Source of the DNA: Linnemannia elongata
Lineage: Eukaryota; Mortierellomycota; Mortierellomycetes; Mortierellales; Mortierellaceae
Length of the DNA: 64,000 bases
Direction: 5' to 3'
Assembly (NCBI GenBank): GCA_036320915.1
Contig: JAXBDG010000010.1
Coordinates: forward strand, 1-64,000
The translations under genes were made by a program, and so were the position numbers. Of this stretch, positions 10,321-39,547 are shown piece by piece; position 1 is the stretch's first letter, and each line of letters opens with the position of its first letter. A model generated the notes under the pieces. The model saw only the letters and a list, made by a program, of their open reading frames with translations. It ran no database searches and was not told the origin of the DNA.

Positions 10321-10329
10321 TATAAAAGG
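10321..10329 (+). promoter_or_regulatory. TATA box of the cysteine-rich repeat gene
   Basis: TATAAAAGG lies 271 bp upstream of the ATG at 10600, in front of an A- and C-rich, pyrimidine-poor leader. It is the best TATA match near this gene and implies transcription from about 10350 with a leader of roughly 250 nt. That leader could contain a small intron (GT at 10470, AG near 10592). The rest of 10091-10599 shows no coding sequence. Confidence 0.5.
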
Positions 10330-10599
10330 GTCGCACACATTCGGCTAAAAATCCATAAAAAAAAACCAAACAACACACCACCAAACCCTCTTCAGTCAAC
10401 CAATCATCCACAAAAGTTTTCCAGATCCACATCGTTTCTTCATTGCTTTTGCTCTTCCCTTGTCAATAAGGTATTCACATAGTCCATTATTCGCTCTTGA
10501 AGGTGGCCATACTCGCTCATTGCAATGACCTTTGCTAACTGTTAAATTGTTCTACGGTATTTCATAATTCACATTGCAATCATAAATTAAGTCGACAGC

Positions 10600-13500
10600 A
10601 TGAAGATCCATTACCTTTTTGTGGCCATCGCATTTTGCGTTTGGGCCGTCAGGGCTTCGGATGAATCCGCCGTGCCATGCTTGATCATCAAGGGTGCCTG
10701 TCACCACAAGGACACACTTCAACCTTGCTCCGAAGGCACAACATGTGTGTCTGGCAAATGCCAGCCACCACCAACATGCTCCCCACTCGGCAAACCTTGC
10801 AGTCTCGACAAGGACTGCTGTGACAGCAAGAAATGTCTTGATGGCAAATGCTGCAACCCTCCGCCACCATGCTCCCCACTCGGCAAACCTTGCAGCCTCG
10901 ACAAGGACTGCTGTGACAGCAAGAAATGTCTTGAGGGCAAATGCCAGACACCACCAACATGCTCCCCACTCGGCAAACCTTGCAGCCTCGACAAGGACTG
11001 CTGTGACAGCAAGAAATGTCTTGAGGGCAAATGCCAGACACCACCAACATGCTCCCCACTCGGCAAACCGTGCAGCCTCGACAAGGACTGCTGTGACAGC
11101 AAGAAATGTCTTGAGGGCAAATGCCAGACACCACCAACATGCTCCCCACTCGGCAAACCTTGCAGCCTCGACAAGGACTGCTGTGACAGCAAGAAATGTC
11201 TTGAGGGCAAATGCCAGACACCACCAACATGCTCCCCACTCGGCAAACCTTGCAGCCTCGACAAGGACTGCTGTGACAGCAAGAAATGTCTTGAGGGCAA
11301 ATGCCAGACACCACCAACATGCTCCCCACTCGGCAAACCTTGCAGCCTCGACAAGGACTGCTGTGACAGCAAGAAATGTCTTGAGGGCAAATGCCAGACA
11401 CCACCAACATGCTCCCCACTCGGCAAACCTTGCAGCCTCGACAAGGACTGCTGTGACAGCAAGAAATGTCTTGAGGGCAAATGCCAGACACCACCAACAT
11501 GCTCCCCACTCGGCAAACCTTGCAGTCTCGACAAGGACTGCTGTGACAGCAAGAAATGTCTTGAGGGCAAATGCCAGACACCACCAACATGCTCCCCACT
11601 CGGCAAACCTTGCAGCCTCGACAAGGACTGCTGTGACAGCAAGAAATGTCTTGAGGGCAAATGCCAGACACCACCAACATGCTCCCCACTCGGCAAACCT
11701 TGCAGCCTCGACAAGGACTGCTGTGACAGCAAGAAATGTCTTGAGGGCAAATGCCAGACACCACCAACATGCTCCCCACTCGGCAAACCTTGCAGCCTCG
11801 ACAAGGACTGCTGTGACAGCAAGAAATGTCTTGAGGGCAAATGCCAGACACCACCAACATGCTCCCCACTCGGCAAACCTTGCAGCCTCGACAAGGACTG
11901 CTGTGACAGCAAGAAATGTCTTGAGGGCAAATGCCAGACACCACCAACATGCTCCCCACTCGGCAAACCTTGCAGCCTCGACAAGGACTGCTGTGACAGC
12001 AAGAAATGTCTTGAGGGCAAATGCCAGACACCACCAACATGCTCCCCACTCGGCAAACCGTGCAGCCTCGACAAGGACTGCTGTGACAGCAAGAAATGTC
12101 TTGAGGGCAAATGCCAGACACCACCAACATGCTCCCCACTCGGCAAACCTTGCAGCCTCGACAAGGACTGCTGTGACAGCAAGAAATGTCTTGAGGGCAA
12201 ATGCCAGACACCACCAACATGCTCCCCACTCGGCAAACCTTGCAGCCTCGACAAGGACTGCTGTGACAGCAAGAAATGTCTTGAGGGCAAATGCCAGACA
12301 CCACCAACATGCTCCCCACTCGGCAAACCTTGCAGCCTCGACAAGGACTGCTGTGACAGCAAGAAATGTCTTGAGGGCAAATGCCAGACACCACCAACAT
12401 GCTCCCCACTCGGCAAACCTTGCAGCCTCGACAAGGACTGCTGTGACAGCAAGAAATGTCTTGAGGGCAAATGCCAGACACCACCAACATGCTCCCCACT
12501 CGGCAAACCTTGCAGCCTCGACAAGGACTGCTGTGACAGCAAGAAATGTCTTGAGGGCAAATGCCAGACACCACCAACATGCTCCCCACTCGGCAAACCT
12601 TGCAGCCTCGACAAGGACTGCTGTGACAGCAAGAAATGTCTTGAGGGCAAATGCCAGACACCACCAACATGCTCCCCACTCGGCAAACCTTGCAGCCTCG
12701 ACAAGGACTGCTGTGACAGCAAGAAATGTCTTGAGGGCAAATGCCAGACACCACCAACATGCTCCCCACTCGGCAAACCTTGCAGCCTCGACAAGGACTG
12801 CTGTGACAGCAAGAAATGTCTTGAGGGCAAATGCCAGACACCACCAACATGCTCCCCACTCGGCAAACCTTGCAGCCTCGACAAGGACTGCTGTGACAGC
12901 AAGAAATGTCTTGAGGGCAAATGCCAGACACCACCAACATGCTCCCCACTCGGCAAACCTTGCAGCCTCGACAAGGACTGCTGTGACAGCAAGAAATGTC
13001 TTGAGGGCAAATGCCAGACACCACCAACATGCTCCCCACTCGGCAAACCTTGCAGTCTCGACAAGGACTGCTGTGACAGCAAGAAATGTCTTGAGGGCAA
13101 ATGCCAGACACCACCAACATGCTCCCCACTCGGCAAACCTTGCAGCCTCGACAAGGACTGCTGTGACAGCAAGAAATGTCTTGAGGGCAAATGCCAGACA
13201 CCACCAACATGCTCCCCACTCGGCAAACCTTGCAGCCTCGACAAGGACTGCTGTGACAGCAAGAAATGTCTTGAGGGCAAATGCCAGACACCACCAACAT
13301 GCTCCCCACTCGGCAAACCGTGCAGCCTCGACAAGGACTGCTGTGACAGCAAGAAATGTCTTGAGGGCAAATGCCAGACACCACCAACATGCTCCCCACT
13401 CGGCAAACCTTGCAGTCTCGACAAGGACTGCTGTGACAGCAAGAAATGTCTTGAGGGCAAATGCCAGACACCACCAACATGCTCCCCACTCGGCAAACCG

Positions 13501-15126
13501 TGCAGCCTCGACAAGGACTGCTGTGACAGCAAGAAATGTCTTGAGGGCAAATGCCAGACACCACCAACATGCTCCCCACTCGGCAAACCTTGCAGTCTCG
13601 ACAAGGACTGCTGTGACAGCAAGAAATGTCTTGAGGGCAAATGCCAGACACCACCAACATGCTCCCCACTCGGCAAACCTTGCAGCCTCGACAAGGACTG
13701 CTGTGACAGCAAGAAATGTCTTGAGGGCAAATGCCAGACACCACCAACATGCTCCCCACTCGGCAAACCTTGCAGCCTCGACAAGGACTGCTGTGACAGC
13801 AAGAAATGTCTTGAGGGCAAATGCCAGACACCACCAACATGCTCCCCACTCGGCAAACCTTGCAGCCTCGACAAGGACTGCTGTGACAGCAAGAAATGTC
13901 TTGAGGGCAAATGCCAGACACCACCAACATGCTCCCCACTCGGCAAACCTTGCAGCCTCGACAAGGACTGCTGTGACAGCAAGAAATGTCTTGAGGGCAA
14001 ATGCCAGACACCACCAACATGCTCCCCACTCGGCAAACCTTGCAGCCTCGACAAGGACTGCTGTGACAGCAAGAAATGTCTTGAGGGCAAATGCCAGACA
14101 CCACCAACATGCTCCCCACTCGGCAAACCGTGCAGCCTCGACAAGGACTGCTGTGACAGCAAGAAATGTCTTGAGGGCAAATGCCAGACACCACCAACAT
14201 GCTCCCCACTCGGCAAACCGTGCAGCCTCGACAAGGACTGCTGTGACAGCAAGAAATGTCTTGAGGGCAAATGCCAGACACCACCAACATGCTCCCCACT
14301 CGGCAAACCTTGCAGCCTCGACAAGGACTGCTGTGACAGCAAGAAATGTCTTGAGGGCAAATGCCAGACACCACCAACATGCTCCCCACTCGGCAAACCT
14401 TGCAGTCTCGACAAGGACTGCTGTGACAGCAAGAAATGTCTTGAGGGCAAATGCTGCAACCCTCCGCCACCATGCTCTATTCTCGGTGGCGCCTGCCACA
14501 AGGACAACGAGTGCTGCGATGGCAAGGTCTGTGTCGACAACAAATGCTGCCACCGTAAGCCAACATGCTCTATTCTCGGTGGCACCTGCCACAAGGACAA
14601 CGAGTGCTGCGATGGCAAGGTCTGCGTCGACAACAAATGCTGCCACCGTAAGCCAACATGCTCTATTCTCGGTGGCACCTGCCACAAGGACAACGAGTGC
14701 TGCGATGGCAAGGTCTGTGTCGACAACAAATGCTGCCACCGTAAGCCAACATGCTCTATTCTCGGTGGCACCTGCCACAAGGACAACGAGTGCTGCGATG
14801 GCAAGGTCTGTGTCGACAACAAATGCTGCCACCGTAAGCCAACATGCTCTATTCTCGGTGGCACCTGCCACAAGGACAACGAATGCTGCGATGGCAAGGT
14901 CTGTGTTTCTGGCAAATGCTGCAAACCTACATGCTCTCCAGTCGGTGGAAGATGCCGCGGCCGCGACAAGAAGTGCTGTGATGGCAAGAAATGTGAGCAT
15001 GGCAAGTGCCAGCCGGATTGCTCTCCAGTCGGTGGAACATGCGGCGGCCGTGACAAGAAGTGCTGTGATGGCAGGAAGTGTAAGCATGGCAAGTGCCAGT
15101 CGGGCGGAGGTCACTTCAGCCACTAA
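10600..15126 (+). CDS. Secreted 1508-aa protein of 48 tandem knottin-like six-cysteine modules
   Basis: Single uninterrupted exon. Residues 1-19 are a signal peptide (MKIHYLFVAIAFCVWAVRA), so the protein enters the secretory pathway. A divergent five-Cys module follows (residues 27-55), then 41 type-A modules (10777-14472), five type-B (14473-14931) and two type-C (14932-15123). A and B share the spacing C-x6-C-x5-CC-x4-C-x4-C, and type C has x6 in the second loop; this fits the inhibitor-cystine-knot (knottin) pattern. Linkers are short and Pro/Thr rich (QTPPT, CNPPPP, CHRKPT). About 20% of the mature protein is Cys. No Kex2-type KR/RR site lies in the linkers, so it is more likely one long disulfide-rich chain than a precursor of many peptides. 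Type-A modules are almost identical, which shows very recent expansion. The function is unknown: wall or surface protein, metal binding, or antimicrobial/inhibitor roles are all possible. The fold is inferred from Cys spacing only. Confidence 0.9.
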   Translation: MKIHYLFVAIAFCVWAVRASDESAVPCLIIKGACHHKDTLQPCSEGTTCVSGKCQPPPTCSPLGKPCSLDKDCCDSKKCLDGKCCNPPPPCSPLGKPCSLDKDCCDSKKCLEGKCQTPPTCSPLGKPCSLDKDCCDSKKCLEGKCQTPPTCSPLGKPCSLDKDCCDSKKCLEGKCQTPPTCSPLGKPCSLDKDCCDSKKCLEGKCQTPPTCSPLGKPCSLDKDCCDSKKCLEGKCQTPPTCSPLGKPCSLDKDCCDSKKCLEGKCQTPPTCSPLGKPCSLDKDCCDSKKCLEGKCQTPPTCSPLGKPCSLDKDCCDSKKCLEGKCQTPPTCSPLGKPCSLDKDCCDSKKCLEGKCQTPPTCSPLGKPCSLDKDCCDSKKCLEGKCQTPPTCSPLGKPCSLDKDCCDSKKCLEGKCQTPPTCSPLGKPCSLDKDCCDSKKCLEGKCQTPPTCSPLGKPCSLDKDCCDSKKCLEGKCQTPPTCSPLGKPCSLDKDCCDSKKCLEGKCQTPPTCSPLGKPCSLDKDCCDSKKCLEGKCQTPPTCSPLGKPCSLDKDCCDSKKCLEGKCQTPPTCSPLGKPCSLDKDCCDSKKCLEGKCQTPPTCSPLGKPCSLDKDCCDSKKCLEGKCQTPPTCSPLGKPCSLDKDCCDSKKCLEGKCQTPPTCSPLGKPCSLDKDCCDSKKCLEGKCQTPPTCSPLGKPCSLDKDCCDSKKCLEGKCQTPPTCSPLGKPCSLDKDCCDSKKCLEGKCQTPPTCSPLGKPCSLDKDCCDSKKCLEGKCQTPPTCSPLGKPCSLDKDCCDSKKCLEGKCQTPPTCSPLGKPCSLDKDCCDSKKCLEGKCQTPPTCSPLGKPCSLDKDCCDSKKCLEGKCQTPPTCSPLGKPCSLDKDCCDSKKCLEGKCQTPPTCSPLGKPCSLDKDCCDSKKCLEGKCQTPPTCSPLGKPCSLDKDCCDSKKCLEGKCQTPPTCSPLGKPCSLDKDCCDSKKCLEGKCQTPPTCSPLGKPCSLDKDCCDSKKCLEGKCQTPPTCSPLGKPCSLDKDCCDSKKCLEGKCQTPPTCSPLGKPCSLDKDCCDSKKCLEGKCQTPPTCSPLGKPCSLDKDCCDSKKCLEGKCQTPPTCSPLGKPCSLDKDCCDSKKCLEGKCQTPPTCSPLGKPCSLDKDCCDSKKCLEGKCQTPPTCSPLGKPCSLDKDCCDSKKCLEGKCQTPPTCSPLGKPCSLDKDCCDSKKCLEGKCQTPPTCSPLGKPCSLDKDCCDSKKCLEGKCQTPPTCSPLGKPCSLDKDCCDSKKCLEGKCCNPPPPCSILGGACHKDNECCDGKVCVDNKCCHRKPTCSILGGTCHKDNECCDGKVCVDNKCCHRKPTCSILGGTCHKDNECCDGKVCVDNKCCHRKPTCSILGGTCHKDNECCDGKVCVDNKCCHRKPTCSILGGTCHKDNECCDGKVCVSGKCCKPTCSPVGGRCRGRDKKCCDGKKCEHGKCQPDCSPVGGTCGGRDKKCCDGRKCKHGKCQSGGGHFSH
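10777..14472 (+). repeat. 41-copy coding minisatellite, 90-bp unit (type A)
   Basis: Units start at 10777 (93 bp), then at 10870 and every 90 bp to 14380 (the last is 93 bp). The first and last units have the variant linker CCNPPPP; the 39 units between them encode identical protein. In DNA I see only two variable positions in those: CCT/CCG (Pro; CCG in the units starting at 11050, 12040, 13300, 13480, 14110 and 14200) and AGC/AGT (Ser; AGT at 11500, 13030, 13390 and 13570, plus the last unit). Units 13300-13659 alternate CCG and AGT, a 180-bp higher-order pair. Five of the six reading frames lack stops across the array, which makes long false ORFs. Confidence 0.97.
14473..15124 (+). repeat. 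Older module types B (5 x about 93 bp) and C (2 x 87-105 bp)
   Basis: Type-B units start at 14473, 14566, 14659, 14752 and 14845 and encode a CSILGG(A/T)CHKDNECC core. They differ at a few sites, including one silent and one Ala/Thr change, and the last has the linker CCKPT. Type-C units start at 14932 and 15019, with cores CSPVGGRC and CSPVGGTC. Divergence grows from A to B to C, so the array seems to have grown by local duplication at the 5' side. Confidence 0.9.
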
Positions 15127-15208
15127 TGATGGGATGGTACACATGTGTGTCTGGCAGATGCCAAGTGCAATGCACACCAATCTATGACCTTGTGGTCTTG
15201 CACTACTC
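15127..15208 (+). pseudogene. Relic of a further module just past the stop codon
   Basis: Directly after the TAA, positions 15138-15166 read ACATGTGTGTCTGGCAGATG and onward. This is nearly identical to 10741-10763 in the first module of the same gene (TCVSGKCQ), but in another frame relative to the present stop. It reads TCVSGRCQVQC. The gene probably once extended further and lost its last module by frameshift, or recombination copied a 5' segment here. Confidence 0.55.
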
Positions 15209-24053: not shown

Positions 24054-24540
24054 AGCCGATAGTGGACACTTGCAGCAGGTGTCATTAGACTTGGAGCAGA
24101 TGTCATCATCCGCAACGTTTTGTGCCCTCAGTTATGCCAATGCCACACCAACAAAGAAAAGTCGATAGTGAAAACTGCGTCAGACTTGGAGCAAGTTTCA
24201 TCATTCGCAACGTATTGTACCCTCAGTTATGCCAATTATTCCAAAAAAGAAAAGCCGATAGTGGAAGAAGATGCGTCAGACTTGGAGCAAGTATCATTAC
24301 TTGGAGCAAGTATCATTACTTGGAGCAAGTTTCATCATTCGCAACATATTGTACCCTCAGTTATGCCAATTACTCCAACAATGAAAAGCCGATAGTGGAA
24401 GAAGATGTGTCAGACTTGGAGCAAGTGCCATTAGACTTGAACCAAATTTCATCATCCGCAACGTTTTGTGCCCTCAGTTGCCTCGGTACCACTCCTACAA
24501 AGAAAGGCCGATTGTGGAGACTGCCTCAAACCTCAGTTTG
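24054..24540. repeat. Minisatellite, four to five diverged units of 93-134 bp
   Basis: Each unit runs AGCCGATAGTGG, GACTTGGAGCAAGT, TTCATCATTCGCAACG, TTTTGTGCCCTCAGTTATGC. Unit starts are at about 24054, 24160, 24253, 24387 and 24504. The 134-bp unit contains a 20-bp triplication of TTGGAGCAAGTATCATTAC. Frames are open through it (up to 139 codons) with a repeated DLEQVSSFATYC phrase. The unit length is not a constant multiple of three, so I read this as non-coding. Confidence 0.8.
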
Positions 24541-38163: not shown

Positions 38164-39547
38164 CTAGCTATCTTTGAGGACATCGATTTTCCTGAGTCGC
38201 TTCCCGTCAACGACAACACCCTCTCCAAAAATACCACCAGTCCCTTCTTCCTGCTCCACCAAATCGGCCAGCTCAAAGATATGGTCCAACTGAATCAGAC
38301 CATCACCGTCGATATCGAGTTTCTGAACTATCAGTCTAATAGTCTCTTCGTCAGGAGTGTGTTTGATGATACGGAGGGCAGCCTCGACCTCGGCGACGGT
38401 CAATTCGTTCCTGTCGTTGGTCTCCATGGGTTTGAATTTTTCTTGACTGTAAGATTCGTAGGCTTGTAGTTCCTCGTCGAGTTTCGAGATCATCTTTTCG
38501 ACGCGGCTACCCAACAGGCGGTCGGCTACTTTTGTTTCAGGAGCGGTGGTGGCGGTAGCGGTGGCGGTGTTGGAGTCTTGTTGGTTTTGTTGTGAGGGGG
38601 AGGAGGAAATGATGTCGTGTGAGAAGAAGGTTCCTTGCTCCTGTTGGCGCACTTTGGCTTGTTGGGTTTGTTGCTCTTTGAGGCCCTCGAGTTTGACACG
38701 CTCTTCTATGACAGGGGAGGGTGCGGTCATGACAAAGAGCGCTTTTCGGAGTTCGAGGAGTTGGACGGTTGTGAGGTGCGATTTGTGTGGAGTAGTGTTG
38801 GTGGTGGTGGCAGTTGTTGTGGGTTGTTGTTTGACAAAACCCTGATCAGAGTCGGATGATATGCTAAAGGCAGGCTCTTCAAAAGGCTGAGTGGAGTGAG
38901 TTGCGTCTGCTGTTACTGTTGCATTGTCAATGGGTGATCGATACAAGAGGTCGTCAGTAGAATACGAGGATCCAAGGAAGATAGGCGCAGCATTAGCGCT
39001 TTGCTCCTCCACAATCCGTTGTCGTTCCAAGAGCTCAATCTCTTTTTCGACTCTGGCTTGTTCCATACACAGCTTCCGGATCTCCTCCTCCTGCGCCTTC
39101 TCATTCGCGATAAGTTCCTCCTGTTGCTGAAGTTCCCTAAGTTTCAGCTCCGGGTCGGCTGCCACTGCCGCAGCGGCAGCAGTGTGTGCAGCTTGCTCGG
39201 TATGTAAGAGCTCCGTCTCATGGAGGAGCGAGTTTGGGAGGGAGGATAGGGTCGCGTGGAGGACTTTCCCGGATCGATCGGGGATGTAAGAGTCTGAATA
39301 CGAGAAGGTCCGGGAGAGGATGAGGATTGTTGCGGGGATGGAGTAGGTGAGGTGGAGTTCTAGCCATTGAGCAAGTTCTGTGCGGAGTCGGGAGGAAGAG
39401 ACGTCGGTTGTGTTTATCCCGCGCGATTGGCATGCTGCTTGGAGTTCTGGTTCTGTCAACGAGTCTACTCCCTCTGTCATTATCAGCTATTTTGGTAGAA
39501 TGTCGGATGAAATGTGAATATACGAGAGTAGGTAAAAGAAAGAAAGG

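Follow-up and report, generated by a model that had tools for sequence, protein, structure and literature searches.

A predicted secreted chain of 48 knottin-like modules encoded in Linnemannia elongata

The 64,000-nucleotide stretch of Linnemannia elongata DNA analysed here (the window) contains a gene whose product would be a secreted chain of about 157 kDa, composed of 48 small cysteine-rich modules and short linkers. The module is best read, from predicted models and by analogy, as an inhibitor cystine knot (ICK), the knottin fold. The fold itself is known, and a long chain of it is unusual. An extracellular structural or adhesive multivalent chain is favoured over an inhibitor or toxin, with a probability of about 0.45. 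If true, a natural chain of 48 knottins with 40 identical copies would mean that the fold is usable as a repeating building block and would supply a ready-made scaffold on which to display many copies in a highly stable form. It would also be a clear case of recent array growth in a genome that also carries a short paralogue of 7 modules, and would add a family to the poorly studied Mortierellaceae secretome.

Organization of the gene and its product

The coding sequence is divided as follows; the signal peptide was assigned by visual inspection, and the N-terminus of an intact paralogue on contig C4 is similar.

10600..15126, + strand: coding sequence, a single open frame of 1508 amino acids (aa) plus stop
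10600..10656, + strand: signal peptide, residues 1-19, cleavage near VRA-SD
10678..10761, + strand: N-terminal cap, a degenerate module with 5 Cys and CS replacing CC; the same five-Cys pattern occurs in the C4 paralogue and in a remnant on contig C27 (one frame)
10777..14454, + strand: 41 type-A modules, 90-bp period starting with module 2
14473..14919, + strand: 5 type-B modules, 93-bp period, with four intervening CHRKPT linkers, each with an extra Cys
14932..15096, + strand: 2 type-C modules, second loop x6

Parsing of the protein gives 48 modules of the form C-x6-C-x5/6-CC-x4-C-x4-C, 46 with five and two with six residues in the second loop, which is the only loop of varying length. Forty of the 41 type-A modules are identical as protein, and module 1 differs by one residue. 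The 47 linkers are short (QTPPT in 39) and seven of them hold an extra Cys. The cap ahead of the array has the spacing C-x6-C-x8-C-x5-C-x4-C. At the DNA level, a 90-bp unit in 41.1 copies (99% matches) is followed by a 93-bp unit in 4.9 and an 87-bp unit in 2.0 copies. The module count is the copy number in the assembly. An open frame by itself says little here, because the stop-free 90-bp unit leaves other frames open too. The remaining five frames contain no modules, and 2000 shuffles of the protein gave a mean of 0.0015 modules and a maximum of 1, against 48 in the real protein.

These results agree with the earlier note on this DNA, which had described a signal peptide ahead of 48 six-Cys modules with this spacing, coordinates, strand, start and stop, and had called the copy number unusual. 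Its intron-free 4.5-kb exon stands for the coding region, a possible intron being confined to the 5' untranslated region (UTR).

From residue 20 onward the protein has 1489 aa (157 kDa, pI 8.3) with 300 Cys (20.1%), 16% Lys and 12% Pro; Tyr, Trp and Met are absent, and Phe occurs once. The cysteines are divided between modules (288), cap (5) and linkers (7). The protein contains no N-glycosylation sequon and neither of the Kex2 sites KR and RR. KK occurs 44 times, 41 of them in the loops of type-A modules and 3 in those of type C, and never in linkers; four of the five RK lie in B linkers and precede Pro. Judged from its sequence, the cap reads as a module whose CC became CS, with one Cys left without a partner, and this Cys could serve intermolecular cross-links.

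Fold of the module

All 48 modules have six Cys in the order C-C-CC-C-C with short loops, and the predicted model has an ICK-like fold. The earlier note had proposed knottin-type modules and structure prediction as a check; the predicted modules are indeed ICK-like, and their structural neighbours are mainly ICK venom peptides together with Dickkopf, squash trypsin inhibitors being also present in the Foldseek list. In DKK4, a spacing of 6,5,0,4,4 identical to that of the module occurs with ICK pairing (PMC6078440). The ICK assignment has good support from the spacing, the DKK4 precedent and a model of moderate quality.

For Pfam Toxin_19 (conotoxin I-superfamily, cut-off 23.2), one A module scored 21.8 bits, two modules 30.0 summed and the full protein 150.6 over 40 stretches; B pieces, C pieces and the C4 paralogue had no match. 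For Pfam Dickkopf_N (cut-off 25), one A module scored 18 bits and three B modules 34.8 summed, the match spanning only about positions 25-51 of 51; the C4 paralogue again had no match. In the search with the A3 alignment profile, DKK4 gave the sole two matches (E 0.0024 and 0.0034). NCBIfam had no match for the three proteins searched.

Several observations weigh against the ICK assignment. The AlphaFold2 alignment had 7 rows and the predicted template modelling score (pTM) was 0.35; other models went down to 68.4. The second model was poor (predicted local distance difference test, pLDDT, 68.7). No Foldseek match reached E 0.001, the low-probability rows include unrelated proteins, and the structural comparison gave Z of at most 3.5. 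Since Dickkopf and colipase rank high for the second model, neighbouring modules may pair differently.

Gene family and history of the array

Protein searches of the source genome covered 51.1 Mb in 32 contigs, the window being the start of contig C2; locus counts are lower bounds. At least four family loci were found: the window gene, the intact paralogue (C4:1185391-1186287, minus strand) and two broken copies. One of these is on C27 near 42.9 kb; the other, close to the opposite end of C2, begins at about 2260504 and has a frameshift in its cap. The C4 product combines a similar signal peptide and the same five-Cys cap with 7 modules, whose second loop has 6 or 7 residues, and with a Cys-rich tail. 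No more than 45 kb separates three of the four loci found from a contig end, for which the chance, calculated post hoc, is about 7e-4. The C27 remnant (L031, about 2236-2570) has an insertion of about 140 bases at the signal-peptide region and has lost its frames; it keeps a TATA-like box.

Comparison with C4 over 57 codons of signal and cap gave pS 0.48, pN 0.24 and dN/dS 0.39, and shows, at the codon level, that signal and cap are under constraint. Among 55 representative module pairs, pN exceeded pS in one (B vs c4_6, 0.39 vs 0.38) and equalled it to two decimals in two. In A modules 2-41 both variant sites are silent, 54 of the 270 possible single changes in the 90-bp unit being silent. 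As a sign of constraint on the A modules this lends weak support, because there are only two sites, spread by exchange; the one amino-acid replacement in module 1 counts against such constraint.

The recurrent variants are scattered along the array (T20G in modules 4, 15, 29, 31, 38 and 39; C26T in 1, 9, 26, 30, 32 and 41), a distribution that fits unequal exchange between the units. Past the stop codon lies a further feature:

15141..15194, + strand: decayed relic similar to the final modules of the C4 paralogue (blastn score against that paralogue 42.8 bits, compared with 24.7 bits for the best of 200 shuffles)

Because this relic matches the region of the last C4 modules, the window gene most likely descends from a C4-like gene that lost its 3' end to decay as one type of module increased about 40-fold. 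A short ancestral gene would have grown its array by intragenic unequal exchange, and the same exchange would hold the module copies identical.

Upstream region

Two features precede the coding sequence.

10321..10328, + strand: TATA box (TATAAAAG), letters checked, from the alignment of family loci
10471..10598, + strand: possible 5'-UTR intron with GT at 10471, CTAAC at 10535-10539 and the acceptor AG at 10590-10591 or 10597-10598, from the four-locus alignment

The TATA box of the earlier note was confirmed at this position and is kept in the intact C4 paralogue. In the four-locus alignment, CTATAAAAGGGTCGCACA is common to the window gene and the C4 paralogue, occurs as a variant in the C27 remnant and is lost in the remnant at the right end of C2. 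The order GT...CTAAC...AG before the start codon is largely kept across the four loci (C27 has TTAAC for CTAAC), and a 5'-UTR intron probably runs from 10471 to 10591 or 10598. A scan for bacterial-type promoters, which is not apt for fungal DNA, found nothing.

Possible role of the chain

The chain would stay whole outside the cell, as the absence of Kex2 KR and RR suggests, and would act as a protease-resistant multivalent coat or adhesive strand on the hypha or spore, offering one surface repeated some 40-fold. Chains could become cross-linked into a network through Cys that lie outside the knots, of which the cap has an odd number and seven linkers have one each. This role is preferred because the copies are identical and undiversified, Kex2 sites are lacking, aromatics are almost absent and extra non-knot Cys are present. 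The "beads on a string" polymer of the earlier note is a plausible, if unproven, fit. A more specific version is doubtful: a biomaterial in which strands of about 48 knottins, cross-linked via the unpaired cap Cys and the extra linker Cys, form a hyphal or spore network that is very stable to chemicals and proteases, is lineage-specific and changes length fast by recombination. Several points stand against a structural or adhesive chain. Its expression, secretion and localisation are predictions from sequence; Pfam, used without a dedicated anchor predictor, revealed no domain for anchoring or wall binding; and the family may be dispensable, given that two of its four loci found are broken.

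The list of roles in the earlier note (surface, adhesive, metal-binding, inhibitor or antimicrobial) is narrowed. The metal-binding polymer is disfavoured, as it would need free thiols, while knot positions take up 288 of the 300 Cys that follow residue 19.

A multivalent inhibitor or toxin is the main rival, possible if on the unlikely side. Each knottin would bind a target (a protease, channel or receptor) in a grazer, a microbe or a plant partner, with tandem avidity as in double-knot toxins. The predominance of venom peptides among the structural neighbours, the squash trypsin inhibitors in the Foldseek list and the confinement of length variation to loop 2 agree with this. Moreover, secreted tandem ICK toxins gain avidity (PMC6262176), and fungal knottins are candidate effectors or toxin-like (PMC4503680, PMC6889267, PMC12099005). 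However, 40 of the 48 modules are identical, with no diversification. Channel toxins usually carry an aromatic patch, which is missing here, since beyond residue 19 Tyr and Trp are absent and Phe occurs once. The Lys in loop 1 of type A would be poor bait for a protease, being followed by Pro.

A decaying or neutral gene, in which a coding minisatellite expanded without present use, is improbable. The two broken loci, the relic of the ancestral 3' end and the absence of convincing database relatives (829-2639 aa and 164-523 aa searched) would suit it, whereas six Cys are kept in 48 of 48 modules, the frame is open throughout, the TATA box is kept, and dN/dS across signal and cap is 0.39.

A precursor cut into many single knottin peptides, in the manner of Kex2-processed repeat proteins (KEPs), is still less credible. 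KEPs likewise have a signal peptide and near-identical repeats (PMC6339444, PMC7329392), and the 44 KK belong to a lesser Kex2 site (PMC6339444). Yet the lack of KR and RR makes a Kex2 precursor unlikely, KK is never in a linker, and four of the five RK in the protein stand before Pro in B linkers; this count concerns Kex2, and proteases of other specificity remain possible.

An assembly artefact in the copy number, with a true module count that is far lower or higher, is very improbable: the 40 near-identical 90-bp units cover 3.6 kb, uncountable by short reads, but 51.1 Mb in 32 contigs suggests long reads, and variant units are spread throughout the array.

Distribution

The protein database was searched with residues 1-600 of the window protein among candidates of 829-2639 aa and with the C4 paralogue among candidates of 164-523 aa. 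Within these lengths the window protein had no convincing relative and matched only two bacterial FG-GAP proteins, P0001 and P0002 (E 8.9e-8 and 5.4e-6); none of the 6403 candidates matched the C4 paralogue at E 0.001. P0001 and P0002 have N-terminal Cys-rich repeats (precomputed PF23416). Their kinship is doubtful and was taken as compositional, their Cys-rich part showing by eye no array of CC modules. A control search with LETM1 returned 81 proteins, indicating a database rich in Mortierellaceae proteins; the named proteins closest to the LETM1 exon of the window were from Mortierella sp. GBA39 (87%), M. hygrophila (84%) and Linnemannia hyalina (83%), which places the source among the Mortierellaceae, close to Linnemannia. 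The window and C4 proteins themselves were not returned, and the database may omit predictions of the source genome. Over the lengths covered, the family seems confined to this lineage of Mortierellaceae.

Scans with single-protein queries, which reach close relatives only, gave 9 pattern stretches in viral_contigs (query two A modules) and 170 in genome_contigs (query C modules), none confirmed. These two scans, one of each collection, gave no relative that would point to a bacterial or viral origin. A Pfam family search of the source genome had no match, but neither had 14 controls, hence it is uninformative.

Genomic surroundings

The earlier note had placed the gene in a repeat-rich accessory region. 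This stands at the contig end only, and conserved genes (PPR, BAR, LETM1) lie 14-25 kb downstream. Positions 1-1977 of the window are a long degenerate pyrimidine-rich tandem array with a 19-bp unit. Inside it lies an inverted repeat (1465-1553, 36-nt arms, 94%, 17 nt between) that looks like a small element of the miniature inverted-repeat transposable element (MITE) kind. The location cannot be claimed as subtelomeric, because (CCCTAA)4 is absent from the assembly. A 134-bp unit occurs in 1.9 tandem copies (93% matches) at 24184-24433. The region 29394-59580 holds conserved genes for a PPR protein, DUF2838, a BAR domain, LETM1 (exon 38164-39486, minus strand), a PAP-associated domain and an Ostalpha-type transporter; three of the nine frames examined there had no Pfam match.

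About 1.5 kb upstream of the C4 paralogue, an open frame (L029:5759-6517, minus strand) has a weak Cas12f1-like TNB match (E 0.036, 14.7 bits vs a cut-off of 26.3), and could be what is left of a Fanzor/TnpB-like protein. The broken copy near the right end of C2 has, about 0.6 kb upstream of it, a berberine-bridge-type oxidase linked to flavin adenine dinucleotide (FAD; L030:3643-5172, minus strand).

Comparison with known systems

ICK peptides such as conotoxins, atracotoxins and squash inhibitors share the framework C-C-CC-C-C, the predicted fold and the module size with the window protein. They are single or paired small peptides, whereas the window protein has 48 modules in one chain and almost no aromatics. 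The Dickkopf N-terminal region (PF04706) has the identical spacing 6,5,0,4,4 in the C-subdomain of DKK4 cysteine-rich domain 1. Dickkopf proteins have two cysteine-rich domains with five disulfides each and act on Wnt receptors (PMC6078440). One window module covers about half of such a domain, and the window protein is an array of six-Cys modules without two five-disulfide domains.

Giant modular extracellular proteins such as Dumpy and Dictyostelium EcmA and EcmB are also long strings of small disulfide domains. Their modules are unrelated to the present one as far as known, so that the likeness is an analogy only; the DPY module 1oig is row 8 of the Foldseek list (E 1.2).

In fungi, knottin domains are likewise secreted in the Histoplasma family, Avr9, Melampsora MLP124266 and Beauveria toxin-like proteins, here likened by description, and the accessible parts of the sources describe no long knottin array (PMC4503680, PMC6889267, PMC12099005). 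Among the literature matches listed, mostly outside subscription journals and represented by titles and the openings of abstracts, there was no mention of a fungal protein that contains tens of knottins. Venturia Cin1, also likened by description, is a genus-specific fungal Cys-rich protein with eight repeats (PMC9632046), fewer than the 48 of the window protein. KEPs share the signal peptide (assigned here by inspection) and the near-identical repeats (PMC6339444, PMC7329392); unlike them, the window protein has no Kex2 sites between its repeats. DkTx and Hi1a belong to the secreted cysteine-rich repeat proteins (SCREPs), which are secreted tandem Cys-rich domains (PMC6262176), a description that the window protein fits with its secretion predicted by inspection. 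According to the same source, ICK does not rank among the 20 most frequent SCREP folds, and two other domains are given with up to 8 and 12 repeats.
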